Shown here: in pieces, positions 5,965-29,414 of the stretch
How positions within the stretch are numbered: position 1 is the stretch's first letter
How the letters are laid out: each line of letters starts with the position of its first letter
NCBI GenBank assembly: GCA_018609755.1
Contig: JAHENZ010000150.1
Span: forward strand, 1-64,000
Direction: 5' to 3'
Length of the DNA: 64,000 nt
From: Salinivenus sp.
GTDB taxonomy: Bacteria > Bacteroidota > Rhodothermia > Rhodothermales > Salinibacteraceae
Program-made: the position numbers and the translations under genes
Notes under the pieces: generated by a model
What the model was told of the DNA's origin: nothing
What the model saw: only the letters and a program-made list of their open reading frames with translations
Databases searched by the model: none

Positions 5965-7536
5965 TTACTCGGTACGGGCGGGCGTCTCCTGGGGAATCAG
6001 CACATCCCCGTCCATCGTCTTCGGCACCTCTTCGCCGAGAAGGGCAAGAATCGTAGGAGCCACGTCGCCAAGCTTGCCGTCTTGAACGGGCCCTTCGACG
6101 TCGTCCTTCAGAATAATGTGGGGCACGAGGGCCGTCGTGTGTGCCGTGTGTGGCGAGCCGTCCGGATTTTTCAGCTTGTCGGCGTTGCCGTGATCAGCAA
6201 TCACGCTCACGGAGTAGTTGTTGCGACGGGCGGCCTCTACGACCTGCTTCGCGGCAGCATCCACGGCCTCGCACGCCGTCACCGCCGCGTCAAAGTCGCC
6301 GGTGTGTCCCACCATGTCGGGATTCGCAAAGTTGAGCACCACCAGGTTGTACGGCGTCTCGTCGAGCGCCTTTTCCGTCCGTTCTGCCACCTCGGGGGCG
6401 CTCATTTCCGGCTGTAGGTCGTACGTGGACACGTCTGGACTCTGTACGAGAATCCGATCCTCCCCGTCAAACCTGTCCTCTCGCCCCCCGCTAAAGAAGT
6501 AGGTCACGTGCGCGTACTTCTCCGTTTCGGCCACGCGGAGCTGCGTGCCGCCCCGGCGACTGATGACATCGCCGAGCGTGTGCTCCAGGTTCACGCGGTC
6601 GAAGGCAATGGGAAGGTCGAACTCTTTGTCGTACGGCGTCATCATAACGTATTCCAGGTCCAGCTTCTCGCGCTCGAAATGGTCGAATTCGTCCACCGTG
6701 AATGCACGGGTTAACTGTCGCGCGCGATCGGCCCGGAAGTTGAAGAAGATCACGCCGTCCCCATCCTCCACGCGGGTGCCCTTTTCCCCGAAGGCCTCTT
6801 CTCCCTCCACCCGAATACGGCGAGGCTCCACGAACTCGTCCGTGACGTCGTTTTCGTAACTGGCCTCCAGGGCCGCAACGGGATCGTCGAACACCTCTCC
6901 CTCTCCTTCCGTGAGGAGCCGGTACGCCTTCTCCGTGCGCTCCCATCGCTCGTCACGATCCATGGCGTGATACCGGCCGACGATCGACACGAGGCGCCCC
7001 ACGCCCACCTCCTCGGCTGCTTCTTGAAACTGCCGTACGTACTCCACCCCACCGTGCGGATCGGTGTCCCGGCCATCGGTGAAGGCATGCACACAGACCT
7101 GCTCGGGGGCGAGGCCTTCGCGGCGAGCCAACTCCAGCAGGCCGTACACGTGCTCCAGGTGGCTGTGGACCCCCCCGTCCGAGAAGCACCCCATGAGGTG
7201 CAGTTTTTGATCATTCTCCTTGGCCTGACGGGCAGCCCCTACGAGCGCCTCATTTTCAAAGAGCGACTCGTCCTCAATGGCCTTCGAGATGCGCAAAATC
7301 TCCTGCCACACGACACGCCCGGCCCCGAGATTCGTGTGCCCAACCTCCGAGTTGCCCATTTGCCCGTCCGGCAGGCCCACAGCCCGACCGGAGGCCTGCA
7401 GGGTGGCGTGCGGATGTTCGTCGAAGAGCGAGTCGACGAACGGGGTGTCAGCGTGATCGATGGCGCTGACGGACGGGTCTTCGGCAATGCCCCATCCGTC
7501 AAGAATGAGAAGGAGGTGGCGGTTCGAGGCGTCCAT
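5965..7536 (-). CDS. gpmI: 2,3-bisphosphoglycerate-independent phosphoglycerate mutase
   Basis: A 523-residue Mn-dependent mutase of glycolysis that interconverts 3- and 2-phosphoglycerate. The alkaline phosphatase-like metal core starts with L-L-I-L-D-G-W-G. The phosphorylated Ser63 lies in M-G-N-S-E-V-G-H, and the inserted phosphotransferase domain includes H-A-F-T-D-G-R-D. The C-terminal metal ligands are in N-F-A-N-P-D-M-V-G-H-T-G and I-A-D-H-G-N-A-D. The ATG at 7536 is preferred over a TTG 9 bp upstream. Length is normal. It converges with sppA across a palindromic element. Confidence 0.96.
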   Translation of the reverse strand: MDASNRHLLLILDGWGIAEDPSVSAIDHADTPFVDSLFDEHPHATLQASGRAVGLPDGQMGNSEVGHTNLGAGRVVWQEILRISKAIEDESLFENEALVGAARQAKENDQKLHLMGCFSDGGVHSHLEHVYGLLELARREGLAPEQVCVHAFTDGRDTDPHGGVEYVRQFQEAAEEVGVGRLVSIVGRYHAMDRDERWERTEKAYRLLTEGEGEVFDDPVAALEASYENDVTDEFVEPRRIRVEGEEAFGEKGTRVEDGDGVIFFNFRADRARQLTRAFTVDEFDHFEREKLDLEYVMMTPYDKEFDLPIAFDRVNLEHTLGDVISRRGGTQLRVAETEKYAHVTYFFSGGREDRFDGEDRILVQSPDVSTYDLQPEMSAPEVAERTEKALDETPYNLVVLNFANPDMVGHTGDFDAAVTACEAVDAAAKQVVEAARRNNYSVSVIADHGNADKLKNPDGSPHTAHTTALVPHIILKDDVEGPVQDGKLGDVAPTILALLGEEVPKTMDGDVLIPQETPARTE

Positions 7537-7743: not shown

Positions 7744-8631
7744 TCACCCATTCACCCGGTAGTCCTTCACCTGCTTCGTTGGGGAGCCATTTTTGGTTCG
7801 CAACACCTGCATCGACCCGCAGTGGGGGCACGCCACTTGTTCGAGGTCGTACCGGTCGACGTGGGTGTCCGGCTCATCGAAATAGTGATTGCTAGTGGTG
7901 CAATAGTAGGTGCCTTCCGTCTCGTCGAGCCCAGACTTTTCTTCTGGGAGCGTTTGCAGCCGATCGTAATATTTGCACACCTCCGTGAGCGAGCAGTCGG
8001 CGCAGTCGGGCGAGCGGGCCATGCACGTGTATCGGCCGTGCAGGATGAGCAGATGGTGCGCATCGGCCCAATCGTCCCGTGGAATGACGCGCTTGAGCTG
8101 CTGCTCCACTTTCTTCGGCGTGTCGGCGCCTTCCGTAACGAGCCCGATCCGATTGGCCACCCGAAACACGTGCGTGTCGACCGGGAGGGCGTCTACGTCG
8201 AACGCAACGTTTGCAACCACCTGCGCCGTCTTACGACCCACGCCCGTGAGTGTCTGAAGATCGTCCACCGCCGATGGGACGTCTCCTCCAAAATTCTCCA
8301 CCACCTGCCGTGCCATTTTCGCCAGGTATCCTGCCTTGTTGTTCGGAAACGTAATGGACTGGATGTACGGGTAAATGTCATCCGGGGAAGCACCGGCTAG
8401 GTCGTGAACCGTGGGGTACGCCTCGAAGAGGTCCGGCGTGGCCTCATTCACCCGTTCGTCGGTGCACTGTGCCGAAAGGATGACGGCGACGAGCAACTGG
8501 TAGGGCGTTTCATAGTCCAGTTCGGTGGTCGGGTGCTCAATCTCTTCTCGGAGCCGGTTGAGGACAAACGCGGCACGGTCGGTACGTCCCACAAGTTCGG
8601 TAGCGATTCTGTTCGTAATTGCAACAGACAT
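7744..8631 (-). CDS. nth: Endonuclease III with C-terminal Cys-rich extension
   Basis: A DNA glycosylase/AP lyase for oxidised pyrimidines. The helix-hairpin-helix L-T-G-V-G-R-K-T-A carries catalytic Lys134, and the catalytic Asp152 is in V-D-T-H-V. The [4Fe-4S] ligands Cys203, Cys210, Cys213 and Cys219 have the classic C-x6-C-x2-C-x5-C spacing. The core ends near residue 225, as in E. coli Nth (211 residues). About 70 extra residues follow with C244, H249 and a C-P-H-C pair (268, 271), resembling a small zinc ribbon. The ATG at 8631 is preferred to an upstream TTG. It is divergent from the DUF4105 gene with only 63 bp between starts. Confidence 0.93.
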   Translation of the reverse strand: MSVAITNRIATELVGRTDRAAFVLNRLREEIEHPTTELDYETPYQLLVAVILSAQCTDERVNEATPDLFEAYPTVHDLAGASPDDIYPYIQSITFPNNKAGYLAKMARQVVENFGGDVPSAVDDLQTLTGVGRKTAQVVANVAFDVDALPVDTHVFRVANRIGLVTEGADTPKKVEQQLKRVIPRDDWADAHHLLILHGRYTCMARSPDCADCSLTEVCKYYDRLQTLPEEKSGLDETEGTYYCTTSNHYFDEPDTHVDRYDLEQVACPHCGSMQVLRTKNGSPTKQVKDYRVNG

Positions 8632-8694
8632 TCGAACCCGTCTCCCCCCCAACCGTTCGAGGCGCTCTCGTCGTGTTCAACAGATTTTCGCTCC

Positions 8695-9951
8695 ATGAAG
8701 GCCCGCCGCATCCGTCACTCCTTTCTCTCCTTGATTGTTGTTTTCGGCCTATTTGCCCTTGCGACGGCACAGGGCCAATCTCGACCGCTATCTGAGCAGT
8801 CCGAGATCTCACTGATTACCATTCTGCCGGGAGACCCCGTTTACACCTTTGCCGGACACAGCGCCTTCCGCATCCAGGACCCTGCTCAGGACCTGGACCG
8901 CCTGTACAACTACGGCACCTTCAATTTCGGCGACCCGCTGTTCATCCCAAAGTTTACTTACGGATACCTGCGGTACCATCTGAGCGTGACCCCGTACGAA
9001 CCGATGCTCCGCTTTTACAAGCAGCAGGGACGCCCGGTCATCGAGCAGCGCCTCAACCTCACCCAGTCGCAGCGGACCGCCGTATACCGGTTTCTCCAGG
9101 AGAATGCCCGTCCCGAGAATCGATACTATCAATACGATTTCTTCTTTGACAACTGCTCGACCCGACTCCGAGACGTCTTAAAAGACACGCTCGGACCCGC
9201 GGTCGACTTCTCGGGCGCCTCCCCTCCCAACCGATCCTTCCGGGAACTGCTAGATCCATACGTGGCCTCGCGCCCGCTCTTGGACCTTGGATTCGACATC
9301 GGCCTAGGCCTCCCCGCCGACCGAATGGCGACGGCGCAGGAAGCGATGTTTCTCCCGGAGCACCTGATGCGAGGCTTCGAAGCTGCCACGCTTGGTTCCG
9401 GATCCGACTCGCGCCCGCTCGTGGCGCACACCGACACGGTGCAGTGGATTTCGAGCTACGACGGGATGGCTCCGGTGTGGGACTGGCCCACGTGGTTGAG
9501 CGTGGGCTTCCTCATCGGCACGCTGGGATGGACCGCCCGGCAGGCGGCGACCCAGACGTTGCCCAATCGATGGGGGGATGCCATCCTACTCGTGGGGGTC
9601 GGATTCGCCGGTCTAACGATCTGCTATCTCTGGTTCATCTCCACCTACGGGGTAACCGACAACAATTTAAACCTACTCTGGGCATGGCCCACCCACCTCA
9701 TCGCCGGCTCCTTGTTGCTTCGTCGCCCGTCCAGCCACGGCCTACGCCTCTACTTACTCGCCACGGCCGGAGGAGCCGCACTGTTCGCCCTCGGCTGGCC
9801 AGTCTGGCCCCAAAACTTGCACACCGCCGTCCTTCCTCTCACTCTCGCCGTGGGCCTTCGGGCGGGCTGGTGGGGACTCCTCCTTTCCAGAACCTCCGCG
9901 GGGATGCTTTCGTCCCTCCATTCCAGTGTCCTAAACGAATCCAGCGCATGA
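8695..9951 (+). CDS. DUF4105 (Lnb N-terminal periplasmic-type) membrane protein
   Basis: A 418-residue envelope protein. The ATG at 8695 begins a clean signal peptide that ends near A-L-A-T-A-Q-G. The frame is open further upstream, but that part is antisense to nth. The N-terminal periplasmic domain has the DUF4105 pattern: D-P-V-Y-T-F-A-G-H-S-A-F-R-I, then Y-N-Y-G-T-F-N-F, then Y-D-F-F-F-D-N-C-S-T-R with the conserved His and Cys that suggest a papain-like fold. About five membrane segments fill the C-terminal third (from about residue 265). Its biochemical role is not established. Confidence 0.85.
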   Translation: MKARRIRHSFLSLIVVFGLFALATAQGQSRPLSEQSEISLITILPGDPVYTFAGHSAFRIQDPAQDLDRLYNYGTFNFGDPLFIPKFTYGYLRYHLSVTPYEPMLRFYKQQGRPVIEQRLNLTQSQRTAVYRFLQENARPENRYYQYDFFFDNCSTRLRDVLKDTLGPAVDFSGASPPNRSFRELLDPYVASRPLLDLGFDIGLGLPADRMATAQEAMFLPEHLMRGFEAATLGSGSDSRPLVAHTDTVQWISSYDGMAPVWDWPTWLSVGFLIGTLGWTARQAATQTLPNRWGDAILLVGVGFAGLTICYLWFISTYGVTDNNLNLLWAWPTHLIAGSLLLRRPSSHGLRLYLLATAGGAALFALGWPVWPQNLHTAVLPLTLAVGLRAGWWGLLLSRTSAGMLSSLHSSVLNESSA

Positions 9952-9956
9952 AAAAA

Positions 9957-9988
9957 CCCCGCTATGAGGAACGAGACTCACAGCGGGG
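9957..9988 (-). terminator. Intrinsic terminator, minus strand
   Basis: CCCCGCT (9957-9963) pairs with AGCGGGG (9982-9988), with inner TGAG/CTCA pairing. On the minus strand it is followed directly by six T residues (9951-9956). It should end transcripts of the pseudokinase gene, whose stop codon is about 270 nt upstream on that strand, giving a long 3' UTR. Confidence 0.75.
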
Positions 9989-10017
9989 CAAACGTCAGAC
10001 GTTTGTTCTATTCTTCG
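9989..10017 (+). terminator. Intrinsic terminator, plus strand
   Basis: A perfect hairpin, CAAACGT (9989-9995), loop CAG, ACGTTTG (9999-10005), is followed by TTCTATTCTTC on the plus strand. It lies 38 bp after the DUF4105 stop codon and probably ends that transcript. Confidence 0.65.
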
Positions 10018-10138: not shown

Positions 10139-10264
10139 TGCTCAATCAAGCTGAAGATGTCGAGTGTCGAATTGCAATCTTTCTCTGAAAGTTATTGTCT
10201 GACACGAACCTACGGTTCGATGGGCAACGCTCAACCCGACACGGAGAACGTGACGCAGCACTAG
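10135..10264. repeat. Structured repeat unit 2, closed by CTAGTGCT/AGCACTAG
   Basis: Shares the central ACTAG with unit 1. The 8-bp closing arms (10135-10142 and 10257-10264) differ from unit 1 by one base on each side, and the change is compensatory. It has the equivalent 19-nt hairpin (10237-10255) one base from the closing arm, plus an internal CGAACC-TAC-GGTTCG hairpin (10205-10219). Its right end overlaps the pseudokinase stop codon. Confidence 0.55.
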
Positions 10265-12678
10265 TTCTGGAGCTGGAACTGGATCCAGACGGTCTTCCGG
10301 GCGGGCACAGCCTCGCCGTTGTACTTGCCCGGTGTAAACTCTGCGTCCCTCACAACCTCAAGGGCCTCGTTGTCGAGGGCCTCTCCCAGCCCGCGAACAA
10401 TCTTCGCACTCCGGACCGTCCCGTCGGGATTCACCACCGCCTGAACGTAGACCCGTCCTTCAAGCCCTTGGTCACGCGCTTCCTGCGGATAGGACGCCTC
10501 TTGAGTCAGGCTCGCTAGGCCGCCCTTCACTTGAGGTTCTTGATCGACGCGCTTATAAACCCCATCTTCGTCGATGATTTCCTTACGCTTTTTCTCCTGC
10601 TCCTGCATCTCCTGCTGCGCAAGGCGCATTTCCTCGAGCTCGCGGTTCGCCTGTTCAATCCGGCCTTTCACGTAGTCGTCGTCGTTCCGGATCTCAAGTG
10701 CCTTCTTGTAGCTCGCGATGGCCTCCTGGAAACTCCCCGCATCGTAGAGAGAATCTCCCTGCGCCCGGTACGTCTCATACTGGGCCGTCTGCTGCTGTTT
10801 TACCTGCATGAGGCTGTCAGCCTCCGCGAGGGCCTCCTCAACCTGAGGACCGTCGGGGTTGACTTCCGCCGCCTTCTGGAAATCCGACTTCGCCTCACTG
10901 TACTCCTGCGCCCGGAGGTGCTGTTGTCCTTCGTTAAAGAACTGCTGGAACCGCTGCTGACGCTCCTGCTCCTCAATCTGCTGTTGCAAGTCAGAAACGG
11001 CCTGCTTCAACTGCGAATTGCCGGAATCGTACTCCAGCGCCTGCTGATACTGTTCGAGGGCCGCCCGTAGATTCCCTTGCTCCAACTGCCGATCCCCCTT
11101 GTTCTGGAAGAACTCGGCCAGTTGTTGGATACTCACGTTGCCCCCGTCGCCCCCACCGCCGGCCTGTCGCTTGGCGATCGTTTTTTGACGAGCCTCGATG
11201 GCCGAAATCTGCTCTTGTGCTGCTTCCCCTTCAGGGTTGGCGTCTTGGGCGGAGTAGAACGCCCCCATTGCCCGTGAATACTGACTAGAGGCTTCCCCGA
11301 GGGCTCCGGCCTGGAAAAGGGAGTCCGCCTCCGCCTTTAGAGTATTGCCTCGGGTGAGAAACTTCTGATACCGCTCTGAGCTGCTCTGCTGCTGAATCTG
11401 TTCGAGCTTCTCCAGGCGCTGTTGGACGTACTCGTCGTCATTCCTGATTTCGAGAGCCTGGTTGTACAAAAACTCGGCAGTTTCGTAATTCTGGTTTTCA
11501 AAGAGCGAATCAGCCCGGCGGCGATACTCCTCATAGGAGCCACTATCAGCGCTCGACGCCCCGCCCGAACTCATCATAAACCACATCCCTCCTCCCAACA
11601 CCAGAACCAGCACCGGGATGCCGATCATAAGGGCCGTCTTATTATCCGACGACCCGCTTCGGGTACCACTTCCACTCCGGGCGGGCCGATCTCCCTCTGC
11701 GCGGGTCGAAAGGACCTCGACTTCGTCGTCGTCTTCGAAGTCTTCTTCCCCCGTCTCCGGCTCCACCGGAATAATGGAATACGAGGCCTCGTCCTCTTCG
11801 TACCGGGTGGACGATTCCTTCAGGGCATTGATGAGCGCATCGATCGACTGGAGCCGCTGCGAGGGATCGACCGCCAGCGCGTCCACGAGGGCCTCCCGCA
11901 CGCCGGGCGCCGAGAACACGTCTGCGTCCTGTACAAGATCGGTTAGGGGATCATCCCCCTCCAATCGGTCGGTAGACTCCGGCAAGCTTTCGCCGGTCAC
12001 CATCTGGCAGATGGTTGCCGCGGCGGAGTATACGTCCGTCCACGGCCCCTGCTGTCCCCGCGGGGTGTACTGCTCCACTGGACTCGTCCCAGACTGGACC
12101 AGCTCCGACATCTTGCTGGTTTCCCGGGCCAACTGAAAGAACGCCCCGCGAAAGCCTGTCAGCAGTACGTCCCCGCCCTCCAGTAACCGAATCGTGCGCG
12201 GAGACACCCCTGCGTGATAGAGCCCATTCTCGTGCGCCAGGTGAAGGGCCTCCAGAATGGGCATCATGATCGTGAGCGCCGCCTTCTCCGACAACTGCCC
12301 CTTGTCTTCGAGTCCCTTCGCGAGAGACATGCTGGGCGGATGCGGACGAACCCGGTAGTACGTCCCGTTCGCCTCGAACGTATCGTAAGACTCCGGAAGG
12401 GCCTCGTGGTCCAGTCCAGCAAGGACCTCCGATTCCTTCCGAAAATATTCGAGGCCGGAGTCGAAGAGGTCAGCTTCCTCCTCCCCCCCCTTCATTTCCA
12501 CCGAGGTTTTCTCCTCCTCGCGACGGGCAAGATGGGCCGGGAAGTACTCGCGGATGATGTACTCCTCATCCGAGTCGACATCCTGCCCCAAGTAGGTGAT
12601 GTCGAAGGGACCCGGATCCCCAAGCGAGCGCTTGACGGTGTACCGCTGATTGAGAACGGTGAGCGGAGCCAGTTCCAT
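10261..12678 (-). CDS. Pseudokinase-TPR-TonB C-terminal domain fusion protein
   Basis: An 805-residue single-pass membrane protein. Residues 13-290 follow the Hanks kinase fold, but every catalytic motif is lost. The VAIK lysine is Arg43 (Y-I-I-R-E-Y-F-P), the HRD loop reads H-A-G (155-157) with Gly for the catalytic Asp, and DFG reads G-F-R (175-177). An acidic linker leads to a membrane helix at 348-368. TPR-like, Gln/Glu-rich coiled repeats span about 380-700, and a TonB C-terminal domain ends the protein (about 715-805, including Y-P-Q-E-A-R-D-Q-G-L-E-G-R-V). It probably acts as a non-catalytic scaffold or receptor spanning the inner membrane into the periplasm; that role is inferred. It has a hairpin leader and a structured 3' UTR. 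Confidence 0.9.
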   Translation of the reverse strand: MELAPLTVLNQRYTVKRSLGDPGPFDITYLGQDVDSDEEYIIREYFPAHLARREEEKTSVEMKGGEEEADLFDSGLEYFRKESEVLAGLDHEALPESYDTFEANGTYYRVRPHPPSMSLAKGLEDKGQLSEKAALTIMMPILEALHLAHENGLYHAGVSPRTIRLLEGGDVLLTGFRGAFFQLARETSKMSELVQSGTSPVEQYTPRGQQGPWTDVYSAAATICQMVTGESLPESTDRLEGDDPLTDLVQDADVFSAPGVREALVDALAVDPSQRLQSIDALINALKESSTRYEEDEASYSIIPVEPETGEEDFEDDDEVEVLSTRAEGDRPARSGSGTRSGSSDNKTALMIGIPVLVLVLGGGMWFMMSSGGASSADSGSYEEYRRRADSLFENQNYETAEFLYNQALEIRNDDEYVQQRLEKLEQIQQQSSSERYQKFLTRGNTLKAEADSLFQAGALGEASSQYSRAMGAFYSAQDANPEGEAAQEQISAIEARQKTIAKRQAGGGGDGGNVSIQQLAEFFQNKGDRQLEQGNLRAALEQYQQALEYDSGNSQLKQAVSDLQQQIEEQERQQRFQQFFNEGQQHLRAQEYSEAKSDFQKAAEVNPDGPQVEEALAEADSLMQVKQQQTAQYETYRAQGDSLYDAGSFQEAIASYKKALEIRNDDDYVKGRIEQANRELEEMRLAQQEMQEQEKKRKEIIDEDGVYKRVDQEPQVKGGLASLTQEASYPQEARDQGLEGRVYVQAVVNPDGTVRSAKIVRGLGEALDNEALEVVRDAEFTPGKYNGEAVPARKTVWIQFQLQN

Positions 12679-12995: not shown

Positions 12996-13022
12996 GGCCT
13001 CAGGAAACGACATCCTGAGGCC
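12996..13022 (-). terminator. Intrinsic terminator of the tRNA unit
   Basis: A perfect 10-bp stem, GGCCTCAGGA (12996-13005) and TCCTGAGGCC (13013-13022), with a 7-nt loop. On the minus strand it is followed by TTTTGTTTGT. It lies 7 bp beyond the 3' end of tRNA-Glu. Confidence 0.85.
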
Positions 13023-13028
13023 AAAGAG

Positions 13029-13103
13029 TACCGCGTACGGGATTTGAACCCGTGTTACCGGCGTGAAAAGCCGGCGTCCTAGACCAGGCTAGACGAACGC
13101 GGC
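13029..13103 (-). tRNA. tRNA-Glu (TTC)
   Basis: Read on the minus strand, the 75-nt cloverleaf has acceptor GCCGCGT/ACGCGGT, an anticodon stem CCGGC/GCCGG with loop TTTTCAC (anticodon TTC), and the T-arm GTTCAAATC. CCA is not encoded. It is 16 bp downstream of tRNA-His. Confidence 0.95.
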
Positions 13104-13119
13104 ACATTCTCAAATGTGG

Positions 13120-13194
13120 GGTGAGCGGTGGGATTTGAACCCACGGCCTCCAGGACCACAACCTGGCGCTCTAACCGACTGAGCTACGCCCACC
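13120..13194 (-). tRNA. tRNA-His (GTG)
   Basis: Minus-strand cloverleaf with acceptor GTGGGCG/CGCTCAC and an encoded extra 5' G opposite discriminator C73, the tRNA-His identity pair. The anticodon stem CCAGG/CCTGG encloses TTGTGGT (anticodon GTG). CCA is not encoded. It is probably co-transcribed with tRNA-Glu. Confidence 0.96.
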
Positions 13195-25836: not shown

Positions 25837-26271
25837 ATGAACTCTCTCCCTCCCGGTCTCGGGTTCTGTGCTCTCCTTTTCAGCGGCGGGATCCTCCTCA
25901 GTGCGTGCCAACAGGAGTCCCCCTCTCAGCAAAGCGCCGCGGCGGATTCGACATCCGAGGCCTTCTCCGATGATGACGTGTACGTAGTGGTTTCCCAGCA
26001 GCCCGACTGCGGCGGCGTCGAGGCCCTGCAGGAGTACATCAATAACAATCCCCCGGAGCCCTTTTGGCCCTGGACGGAGACCGAAGGCAAAGTCTTCGTT
26101 CAGTTCGTCGTGAGCAAGGAGGGCGAAGTGGTAACCCCAGAGGTGACCCGTGGTGTGAGCGAACCGCTCAATACGAGGGCCCTCGAGGCCGTGCAGAACC
26201 TGAACTGCGAGCCGGGGGTGCAGGAGGGCCAACGTGTGCACGTTCGGATGAGTCTGCCAGTTACATTTTGA
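25837..26271 (+). CDS. Small lipoprotein with TonB-like C-terminal domain
   Basis: A 144-residue exported lipoprotein. The signal peptide ends in the lipobox L-L-S-A-C (Cys24), followed by a Ser/Gln-rich linker. The rest (about residues 45-144) reads like a TonB C-terminal domain: G-G-V-E-A-L-Q-E-Y-I, then G-K-V-F-V-Q-F-V-V-S-K-E-G-E-V, then L-N-T-R-A-L-E-A-V-Q. Unlike true TonB it has no inner-membrane helix or Pro-rich spacer, so it cannot act as an energy transducer in the normal way. It converges with the Hanks kinase gene (65-bp gap). Its partner is unknown. Confidence 0.82.
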   Translation: MNSLPPGLGFCALLFSGGILLSACQQESPSQQSAAADSTSEAFSDDDVYVVVSQQPDCGGVEALQEYINNNPPEPFWPWTETEGKVFVQFVVSKEGEVVTPEVTRGVSEPLNTRALEAVQNLNCEPGVQEGQRVHVRMSLPVTF

Positions 26272-26336: not shown

Positions 26337-29300
26337 TTACGTCTCCGCCGCAGGGGTCTCCTCTGCCTTGAGGGAGTCGCGGTATCGCTGGGCCTGAATG
26401 GATTTGTCCCACGCTTCGTATAGGTCCACGAGTTTCTGGATCGATTCGCGCAGGGCGGGATGCCCCGAACGGTAGGTTGAACGACGGATCGACAAAAGAT
26501 CGAGTAAGTGCTGTTCAGCGGCCGCGTACTTTTCCTGCGTACTCAACACGGTCGCCAGGTTGCTCAACGTCCTGGCGGTTCTTGGGTGACGGGGTCCCAG
26601 TTTCTCACGACGGAGGGCTAACACCTTGCGGAAGATCGAATCGGTAGCGGCGTACCGGCCCTGACGGTACAGCACCCCCGCCAGGTTATTCAGTATCGTG
26701 ATGGTTTCCGGGTGTCGCGGCCCCAACGCCTCTCGCCGGATGGCCAAGGCTTCGTGGAATAAGGAATCGGCCACCTCATACCGGCCCTGCTCGTACATCG
26801 AGAGCCCAAGTCGATTCAGTGCCCCAGCCGTCTCCACGTGATTCGCCCCTAACTGCTCCCGCCGGATGGCCAGGCCCCTGCGGTAGAGCGAGTCGGCCCG
26901 TTCATACCGACCCTGCTTGCGAAAAGTACTTCCCAAATTCAAGAGCGCCGTGGCGGTTTCCGGATGTTGCGGCCCCAATGCCTCCCGCCGGATGGCCAAG
27001 GCCTCACGGAATGCCGAATCGGCCGCCGCGTACCGGCCCTGCATGCGCAGCGCGCTTCCGAGGTTCACCAGCGTCGAGGCGACATCCGGATGGCGCGGCC
27101 CTAGTCGCTCCCGGTCGATCGAGAGAACGTCGCGGTACACCGAATCGGCTGCGGCGTACCGGCCCTGACTGTAGTACGTGATTCCCAGATTATTGAGTGT
27201 CGTAGCGGTTTTTGGATGCCGCGGTCCCAGTTGTTCTCTGGCGATCGCCAAGGCCTCCCGGAATACTGAGTCGGCCGCCTCATATCGGCCTTGCTCGCGC
27301 AGCGTGAGGCCAAGGCTGTTGAGCGTCACCGCCGTTTCAGGATGCCGCGGCCCCAATGTCTCACGCCGAACGGCCAGGGCATCTCGGAAAACCGAGTCGG
27401 CCGCTGCGTACCGGCCTCGTTCAATTAACGCATTCCCGAGGTTGCTCAGCGTCGTAGCGGTACTGGGGTGCTGCGGCCCCAGTCGTTTGCGCTTCAACGC
27501 TAGGGCCTTGCGGTAAATCGAGTCGGCCGCTGCGTAGCGCCCCTGTTCATCCAAGACAATTCCCAGATCGTTGTAAAGCACAGCGATTGTGCGGTGGGGG
27601 TCGTCGTGCACTGCTCGTCGCATTGAAAGGGCGGCTCGAAGAAGAGAATCGGCCGGGGACAAGAGCTCCCGATCCCGCTTGACAAGACCGAGATCGTGGA
27701 GACTCTCCGCGATCTTCGGATGAGGCGGATCGAACAGGCGCCGTCGCATTGCCAGGGCCTCTGCGTGGAGCGACTCGGCAACGGCGTACCGGCCCCGGTT
27801 GCGCTGCACCTCCCCGTAGTTGTCGAGACTCTCCGCCACTTCGGGATGAGGTCCATCGTAAAGACGAGAGCGAATCTCCCGGGCGCGAGAGATAAACGAG
27901 TCGGCCCGCCCGTATTCCCCCAGTCCCTGATAGGCTCGCCCGATGGCTCCAAGCAACTGGGCCTGCGATGCCGGCTGGTCCTGCAACTGGGAGACGCGTT
28001 CTTCTCCGCGCCGAAGAAGGGTCTCAGCCGTCAGCGTGCTCGGTTGTTCGTAGGGATTGCTCGCCTCGAAAAGACCCACGAGCAAATCCGACACCTCCTC
28101 GGCCGTCTCCGCCTCCCGCTGCGCGCGCTCCTTCTGCTCCGCCAGTCGGTCGGCCTGAAGGGTGACCGTCCCCGCGTAGGCCACTCCGAGGATAGCGATG
28201 ATTATGCCTGCCACGACCCCTGTTCGATTGCGCTCAACAAACTTTCTGGCACGGTAGCGCAATGTCGACGGCCGTGCCTCGATCGGCTCGCCCGCCCGGT
28301 AGCGTCGGAGATCCCTCGCCAGCGCCCCGACCGATCGGTATCGACGCTCCGGTTCCTTCCGCAGAGCCTTGAGCACGATGGTGTCCAGATCGCCCTGCAA
28401 GGACTCGCCCGCAACACCCGCATCGCCTTGAGCCTCCTCCGAAGGAACAGCCGGCGACTCCTCGATGAGGACGCGCTCAATCTCGGTGAGCGACTTTCCC
28501 TCCAGCTCAAACGGCCGCGTTCCCGTAAGAAGCTCGTAGGTGAGCACACCCAGCTGGTACACGTCCGTCGCCGTCGTAATCTCCTCCCCTTTCACCTGCT
28601 CTGGCGCCGCGTAGGCCGGCGTCATGAGGTGCTGACCCGTCCGCGTGTTCGGCCGCGTCACCGGCAGCGAATCGTCGAGCAGCTTTGCAATGCCGAAGTC
28701 CAGAAGCTTAATCGTCGGCCCGCTCTCGGTCTCGGTAACCAGCACATTCGAGGGCTTCAAATCGCGATGCACCACCAGCCGGCCGTGGGCCGCCGAGACG
28801 GCATCGACGACCTGCTCCAGCAGATCCAGCCGGGCCGCCAAGTTCAGTTCTCGCTCCTCCGCGTACGTGGTGATGAACTGTCCGTCCACGTGCTCCATCA
28901 CGAGGTAGGGACGCCCGCCCTCAGTTACACCGCCGTCGATGAGCCCCGCGACGTTCGGGTGCTCAAGGCTGGCTAGCACCTGACGCTCGGTCCGGAAGCG
29001 CTCGACGGCGGCCTCGGAGTGGAGGCGCCGCTGCAAAAGCTTGATCGCGACCGTCTGCTCGAAGTCGCCGGTGACCCGCTCCGCCCGATATACGATCCCC
29101 ATTCCCCCCACGCCGACCTCCTCTACCAGGCGATAGGGACCGATTTGCCGACCCGAAAGGTCCATAACGTCCGCCACGTCCTCTCCTCCAGTTGGGATTT
29201 CTGGAGACTCTGACATGAGCGGGGCCACGACCCGATCGGCCATCTGCGAAAAGAAGTTCGGAGCCTCCTCTCGGGCCGAAAGCAGAGACGCCACCTCCTC

Positions 29301-29414
29301 CTGCACCGCCGGATCCTCGCAGTGCGTTGCAAGGTATTGCTCCCGCTCATCCCGCGGAACGTCTAGCACAGCTTCGAAGAGCGTTTGGATCCGGTCCCAC
29401 TGTCGTTCAGCCAT
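26337..29414 (-). CDS. Hanks-type Ser/Thr kinase with twelve TPRs
   Basis: A 1025-residue membrane kinase. A short N-terminal helical region is followed by an intact kinase domain (about 94-370) with G-V-G-G-M-G-I-V, Lys125 in V-A-I-K, H216-R217-D218-L-K-P-S-N and D239-F-G. A membrane helix at 399-416 follows. The rest is twelve exact 42-residue kinesin-light-chain-like TPRs (residues 501-1004). The kinase faces the cytosol, so the TPRs should be periplasmic. It starts 15 bp after the sigma factor gene and is surely co-transcribed with it; known pairs of this kind (EcfP/PknT) use kinase phosphorylation to activate the sigma factor. That link is inferred here. Confidence 0.94.
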   Translation of the reverse strand: MAERQWDRIQTLFEAVLDVPRDEREQYLATHCEDPAVQEEVASLLSAREEAPNFFSQMADRVVAPLMSESPEIPTGGEDVADVMDLSGRQIGPYRLVEEVGVGGMGIVYRAERVTGDFEQTVAIKLLQRRLHSEAAVERFRTERQVLASLEHPNVAGLIDGGVTEGGRPYLVMEHVDGQFITTYAEERELNLAARLDLLEQVVDAVSAAHGRLVVHRDLKPSNVLVTETESGPTIKLLDFGIAKLLDDSLPVTRPNTRTGQHLMTPAYAAPEQVKGEEITTATDVYQLGVLTYELLTGTRPFELEGKSLTEIERVLIEESPAVPSEEAQGDAGVAGESLQGDLDTIVLKALRKEPERRYRSVGALARDLRRYRAGEPIEARPSTLRYRARKFVERNRTGVVAGIIIAILGVAYAGTVTLQADRLAEQKERAQREAETAEEVSDLLVGLFEASNPYEQPSTLTAETLLRRGEERVSQLQDQPASQAQLLGAIGRAYQGLGEYGRADSFISRAREIRSRLYDGPHPEVAESLDNYGEVQRNRGRYAVAESLHAEALAMRRRLFDPPHPKIAESLHDLGLVKRDRELLSPADSLLRAALSMRRAVHDDPHRTIAVLYNDLGIVLDEQGRYAAADSIYRKALALKRKRLGPQHPSTATTLSNLGNALIERGRYAAADSVFRDALAVRRETLGPRHPETAVTLNSLGLTLREQGRYEAADSVFREALAIAREQLGPRHPKTATTLNNLGITYYSQGRYAAADSVYRDVLSIDRERLGPRHPDVASTLVNLGSALRMQGRYAAADSAFREALAIRREALGPQHPETATALLNLGSTFRKQGRYERADSLYRRGLAIRREQLGANHVETAGALNRLGLSMYEQGRYEVADSLFHEALAIRREALGPRHPETITILNNLAGVLYRQGRYAATDSIFRKVLALRREKLGPRHPRTARTLSNLATVLSTQEKYAAAEQHLLDLLSIRRSTYRSGHPALRESIQKLVDLYEAWDKSIQAQRYRDSLKAEETPAAET
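26403..27914 (-). repeat. Twelve tandem 126-bp coding repeats (TPR array)
   Basis: Twelve in-frame 126-bp units each encode one 42-residue TPR, with a consensus near Y-A-A-A-D-S-x-F-R-E-A-L-A-I-R-R-E-x-L-G. Repeats 4-11 are closely similar, also at DNA level, so unequal crossing-over could change the copy number. Confidence 0.85.

Follow-up and report, generated by a model that had tools for sequence, protein, structure and literature searches.

Pseudokinases that act as membrane-anchored scaffolds are known from Gram-positive or mycobacterial envelopes, with EssB/YukC, TraF and MviN as the described cases. EssB/YukC and TraF each combine a cytosolic pseudokinase, one transmembrane (TM) helix and a helical extracytoplasmic part, and serve as non-catalytic scaffolds of membrane complexes (PMC12599244, PMC13037476). 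YukC scaffolds its secretion complex via an FHA partner (PMC13037476), and the phosphorylated tail of MviN recruits FhaA (PMC12599244). Among further families, CP1 has no TM segment and GLW carries the residues GLW at the HRD position (PMC12599244).

Here, we describe a gene from a 64,000-nucleotide stretch of DNA that was analyzed as a whole (the window), whose product carries a PpkA-like pseudokinase domain, TPRs and, at its C terminus, a TonB-family domain. We found no report in the literature that joins pseudokinase, TonB and TPR, and no fusion of this kind appears in a review of 2025 on the pseudokinase families of bacteria; its text, with which we compared our protein by description only, covers ActPs1-3, GLW, CP1, DYD and DLHK and mentions neither TonB, TPR nor PpkA (PMC12599244). 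Like EssB/YukC (T7SSb) and TraF (pIP501 T4SS), the window protein is predicted to place a dead kinase in the cytosol, followed by one TM helix and a helical extracytoplasmic part; unlike it, these proteins belong to Gram-positive secretion systems and have no TPR-TonB_C end. Moreover, EssB has an attenuated activation loop, whereas in the window protein the PpkA-like domain is full and retains EQY and GPWTDVY, and EssB is not among the best 60 phmmer and best 50 Foldseek matches listed. The PpkA Ser/Thr kinases (5hnv), its nearest solved relatives, share the EYxP and GPWTDVY signatures but retain the VAIK Lys, HRD and DFG and have no TonB domain. MviN (ActPs3, M. tuberculosis), a recruiting domain, is likewise membrane-linked with bulky residues in the ATP site (PMC12599244), although it belongs to a different family and a different fusion. 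A transmembrane pseudokinase scaffold is thus known as such, while the end predicted to face the outer membrane is new. Since the closest inside-cell analogues are the EssB/YukC, TraF and MviN pseudokinases, we lean slightly towards regarding the protein as a vertically inherited, non-catalytic trans-envelope scaffold or tether, and not as a transducer driven by the proton motive force.

Domain architecture of the window protein

Along the 805 residues, Pfam detects a Pkinase domain (E 2.3e-9), several TPR families and TonB_C (PF03544, 1.3e-19), in this order. Together with a single TM helix at residues 350-368, this bears out the preliminary description, in which a kinase-like domain was joined across the membrane to TPRs and a TonB C-terminal domain. 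The gene and its segments are as follows.

10261..12678, minus strand: complete gene, 805 aa, pseudokinase-TM-TPR-TonB_C (ATG start, intact ORF, Pfam)
11794..12678, minus strand: pseudokinase domain, aa 1-295, PpkA-like kinase fold (Pfam, phmmer, AF2, Foldseek)
11638..11793, minus strand: acidic juxtamembrane linker, aa 296-347, low-confidence in AF2
11575..11631, minus strand: lone TM helix, aa 350-368, without His, Ser or acidic residue
10576..11535, minus strand: aa 382-701, predicted to form an extended rod of TPR hairpins with continuous 34-41-residue helices between them
10270..10497, minus strand: TonB C-terminal domain, aa 728-803 (PF03544; solved TonB C-terminal domains match)

The AF2 model (17 family members) has a mean pLDDT of 82, with confident kinase, TPR and TonB parts and a disordered stretch at residues 309-380. 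PpkA is the nearest solved kinase both by sequence (phmmer 3.3e-26) and by structure (Foldseek E 1.0e-15, TM 0.82 over the target), and pLDDT values of ~85-95 across most of residues 1-290 agree with the earlier statement that the kinase fold and length are retained.

Loss of catalytic residues throughout a pseudokinase clade

The same description had read Arg for the VAIK lysine, HAG for HRD and GFR for DFG, and alignment with intact kinases places all three replacements at the right columns, adding a fourth in the catalytic loop.

12550..12552, minus strand: R43 in place of the VAIK lysine (alignment with intact kinases)
12208..12216, minus strand: H155-A156-G157 in place of HRD, the catalytic Asp being gone
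12193..12195, minus strand: T162 (HRD+5) in place of the Mg-binding catalytic-loop Asn
12148..12156, minus strand: G175-F176-R177 in place of DFG

Further losses in the window protein affect the VAIK Ala (I41), the gatekeeper Met (R111) and two glycines of the Gly loop (P24 and D26). The HAG of the window protein is HGG in most close relatives. We then compared 27 related domains with 21 intact PpkA-like kinases from the same bacterial order. These relatives conserve the degenerate motifs: the HRD Asp and the catalytic-loop Asn are absent in 27/27 domains, which shows that the pattern of motif loss is not due to chance. In all 27, the VAIK Ala is replaced by V, I, L or T and the gatekeeper Met by R, L or S; the VAIK Lys is lost in 25/27, the DFG Asp in 24/27 and the DFG Gly in 27/27, and the Gly loop reads GPFD in the pseudokinase clade versus GGFG in the intact kinases. 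Common to both sets are Y29, E44, P47, E82 (the alpha-C Glu), H149 and H155, as well as F176, E202 (the APE Glu), D215, Y217 and R275. The shared residues are those that hold the fold, whereas the lost ones are those of ATP binding and catalysis. The exceptions are few: two members of family f7 (L058 and L114) have both the VAIK Lys and the DFG Asp, and one f1 member (L052) has the DFG Asp.

From these replacements, we infer that the domain has no kinase activity, and it probably does not bind ATP. Nucleotide sensing by the pseudokinase is unlikely, because the ATP-contacting residues are replaced throughout the clade; in the f7 branch with Lys and DFG Asp, nucleotide binding may occur, which speaks against a purely scaffolding role there. 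One could alternatively imagine a nucleotide-binding switch, or an unconventional transferase working via other residues, given that the domain still has its kinase fold and alpha-C Glu, that Arg stands for the Lys facing this Glu, and that two f7 members keep Lys and DFG Asp. However, with V, I or L at the VAIK Ala, R, L or S at the gatekeeper, Pro and Asp in the Gly loop, and both the Asn and the HRD Asp gone in every domain, we regard this as very improbable.

Age of the loss, selection and distribution

A maximum-likelihood tree places the 27 pseudokinase domains on one side of a branch with 100/100 support. Compared with L048, its closest ortholog, the window protein is 93% identical in the pseudokinase domain (dN/dS ~0.03) and 79% identical in the TPR part (dN/dS 0.06); for this pair, dN/dS lies at 0.02-0.08 in every segment, values that are rough as dS is near saturation. 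The frame is open and the orthologs are conserved, and in 6/6 pairwise comparisons the dead kinase domain has the highest identity among five segments. The loss of catalysis is therefore ancient, of single origin and under purifying selection. Recent decay, which the preliminary description had named as the case that would overturn it, or an artefact, might be suggested by a bare sequence pattern in a single protein or by the truncated stub found in one relative (below), but the monophyly of the loss, the strong purifying selection and the conserved synteny exclude recent decay and rejected it as an explanation, and the probability left to either is negligible.

Every complete-frame homolog ends in TonB_C with the exception of one paralog (L056:4533-6233, in G014), in which the TPR-TonB part is swapped for a weakly DUF5689-like domain. 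Another paralog (L057:6946-7929, in G021) has a frame that runs off the contig. In genomes of family f9, the pseudokinase gene is present at separate loci in two to four copies that have diverged (L062, L063, L068, L115 and L116, and further L118, L119, L120 and L122), and the neighboring genes differ between the copies. Among the matches listed, all genomes with a match belong to the same order, both in the class (245 genomes, E<=1e-40) and in a sample of the phylum (395 genomes, 1e-50); a scan of the whole collection gave L047 as the sole match, apparently the same contig as G002:C90. Within this range, loss or reduction has occurred repeatedly: most genomes of the window's own genus lack the gene, and in G018 a broken C-terminal (TonB_C) remnant occupies the same slot (L145, ~6640-6900). 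The absences in the genus and the stub argue that the gene is dispensable, which counts against a scaffolding role.

Membrane segment, predicted rod and TonB domain

The TM helix has the sequence TALMIGIPVLVLVLGGGMWFMMSSG. Its flanks carry a charge of +2 on the N side and -1 on the C side, which is consistent with a cytosolic N terminus. Behind the membrane, the predicted rod is of an unusual kind, with short TPR hairpins joined for the most part by helices of 51-62 Angstrom each, and, if extended, would in principle be long enough to span the periplasm. Among the best 50 matches, no solved TPR structure superposes well over the rod (TM <= 0.30), and its global geometry is of low confidence (pTM 0.53), a further point against the scaffold. 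Judging by the kind of domain, TonB_C could plausibly bind an outer-membrane protein.

Comparison with energy-transducing TonB proteins

It had also been proposed that the protein links kinase-like sensing to envelope energy transduction. In TonB, coupling to the motor relies on the TM helix with its SHLS motif and on a D-box behind it (PMC12204202, PMC10907165). In canonical TonBs from this genome and related ones, a TM helix of the form E(I/V)GLxLxL...AF(Q/R) precedes a strand-like EIVxxEEIQQT segment and a Pro-rich linker. The window protein resembles such transducers in carrying a TonB-family C-terminal domain on a TM-anchored periplasmic arm; unlike them, its TM helix is internal, a TPR rod takes the place of the Pro-rich linker, and a large, presumably cytosolic pseudokinase precedes the membrane. 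Its TM helix has no motor-binding signature, neither SHLS/His nor the E..GL..AFQ of the lineage, and the segment after it, SSGGASSADSGSYEEYRRR, runs straight into a helix with no D-box or motor-box strand, as judged by eye against the description in PMC10907165. Proline makes up 0.9% of residues 381-700 versus 14.9% of the start of one canonical TonB linker in the same genome. Because the TM signature, the D-box-like strand and the Pro-rich linker of the genome's own TonBs are all absent, the proposed link to energy transduction is unsupported, and the protein is probably not an energy transducer.

This bears on the possibility that ExbB/ExbD drives the protein as an energy-transducing TonB paralog whose cytosolic cap is regulatory. 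In its favor, the TonB C-terminal domain is a true one and matches solved TonB structures; the genome also encodes two ExbB-family proteins and ~49 TonB-dependent receptor plugs, so that a docking partner could be available. Nevertheless, the TM helix and the segment behind it, the helical rod and the bulky folded domain before the membrane, which is unlike the three-domain TonB/TolA transducers (PMC12204202), make this reading quite improbable.

Conserved locus and exchange of the cytosolic module

The gene looks monocistronic, because a terminator-like hairpin lies upstream of it, behind two tRNA genes; a second one lies downstream of it, next to a convergent neighbor.

12996..13022, minus strand: terminator-like hairpin 5' of the pseudokinase gene, behind tRNA-His and tRNA-Glu (13028-13193)
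9956..9989, minus strand: terminator-like hairpin 3' of the pseudokinase gene
8404..9951, plus strand: Lnb_N/5TMH_Lnb (DUF4105) protein, convergent neighbor, in the conserved synteny block

The block HU-ruvX-DUF72-HIT-PHP-ribH-[gene]-Lnb-nth-gpmI, with Lnb convergent, is found, complete or partial, in families f1, f7 and f9. An operon, or a partner encoded in the neighborhood, was considered and rejected, as the flanks consist of housekeeping genes and the Lnb protein; that the gene has no operon partner likewise weighs against the scaffold. No secretion genes, including those of a T6SS, occur in the block around the locus. A PorZ-like (T9SS) gene adjoins ribH at this position in other families (L135:2768-5173, L136, L138, L139 and L147) and in L058 of f7; a link to the T9SS was dismissed as too weak, since porZ adjoins the pseudokinase gene only in L058. 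Elsewhere in the window, a second kinase (26337-29414, minus strand) consists of a Pkinase domain that scores like an ordinary kinase (1.8e-41) and, behind it, a long array of TPRs. Another TonB_C match (44 bits) is found at 26080-26268 on the plus strand; the 168-aa open frame that contains it overlaps an ORF of the minus strand.

In family f2 (L065 in G025 and L146 in G058), the same slot is filled by a PEGA-TPR-TonB_C protein. That of L065 (1805-4741) has a low-complexity N-terminal half, then a TM helix and no kinase domain; that of L146 (6330-7505) is cut off by the contig end. A single branch (SH-aLRT 99) unites the TonB domains from the pseudokinase proteins, L065, L146 and the G018 stub, and the canonical TonBs in these genomes lie outside it; branch membership was read from row names, and the tree contains duplicate loci. 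With kinase-free proteins in the f2 slot and TonB domains on one branch, what has stayed constant at the locus is the TPR-TonB half, and the cytosolic module has been exchanged.

Intact PpkA-like kinases end in TPRs, a sulfatase-modifying-enzyme domain or a beta-helix, without TonB_C. The exception is L075:3130-4734 (G034, family f11), which like the window protein has kinase, TM helix and TonB_C in one chain, but whose catalytic motifs are intact and which has no TPRs. It is probably an independent fusion, because its surroundings contain none of the marker genes of the synteny block and the tree puts its TonB domain on a different branch. We also considered it as the ancestor of the pseudokinases and rejected this, its kinase lying outside the pseudokinase clade and its TonB domain elsewhere, though an AU test does not reject the grouping of L075 with the pseudokinases (p 0.17). 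Fusions of an M56 (BlaR1-type) peptidase with TonB_C resemble the window protein in that TonB_C forms the periplasmic end of a membrane signaling protein, with a peptidase instead of a pseudokinase and without a TPR rod; in the window's own genome, such a peptidase is fused to two TonB_C domains (L001:1096-2859).

Proposed role in the envelope

Our preference for a scaffold or tether draws on the architecture, the clade-wide loss of catalysis, its single origin, purifying selection, synteny and module exchange. In the mechanism we propose, the PpkA-type pseudokinase would act in the cytosol as a folded protein-binding domain that performs no phosphorylation and probably binds no ATP. From there, a single TM helix would lead into the periplasm, where TPR hairpins and long helices would form an extended rod. 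The rod would bring the TonB-family domain towards the outer membrane, and TonB_C could pair there with a partner protein, outer-membrane or periplasmic, through a strand of that partner resembling a TonB box. In this manner, the protein might tether an outer-membrane complex to a cytosolic partner, or report on the complex to that partner, with no transduction driven by the proton motive force on its own part.

The main competing explanation is a receptor, in which TPR-TonB_C would sense the state of the outer membrane or periplasm and the pseudokinase would allosterically control an active PpkA-like kinase or recruit an FHA protein in the cytosol. It is a possible but distinctly less probable explanation: the genome does encode four FHA domains as well as a kinase-TM-TPR paralog whose PpkA-like kinase is intact, EssB/YukC and MviN in the literature work through FHA partners, and TonB_C is also fused to the M56 peptidase in this genome, but no kinase or FHA gene is linked to the locus, whose neighbors are housekeeping genes. 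It is tempting to speculate further that the protein represents a new class of trans-envelope signaling in diderms, the pseudokinase being coupled mechanically or allosterically, via the TPR rod and TonB_C, to the state of outer-membrane TonB-box proteins, but we hold this to be unlikely.

In the diderms studied here, an entire pseudokinase clade that lost catalysis once, long ago, is fused to a TonB-type domain that could potentially dock at the outer membrane. This arrangement makes it testable whether a cytosolic pseudokinase extends towards the outer membrane and whether TonB C-terminal domains are employed outside energy transduction. Since the comparison of slots shows the TPR-TonB half to be constant and the cytosolic module to be exchangeable, domain-swap tests are direct.
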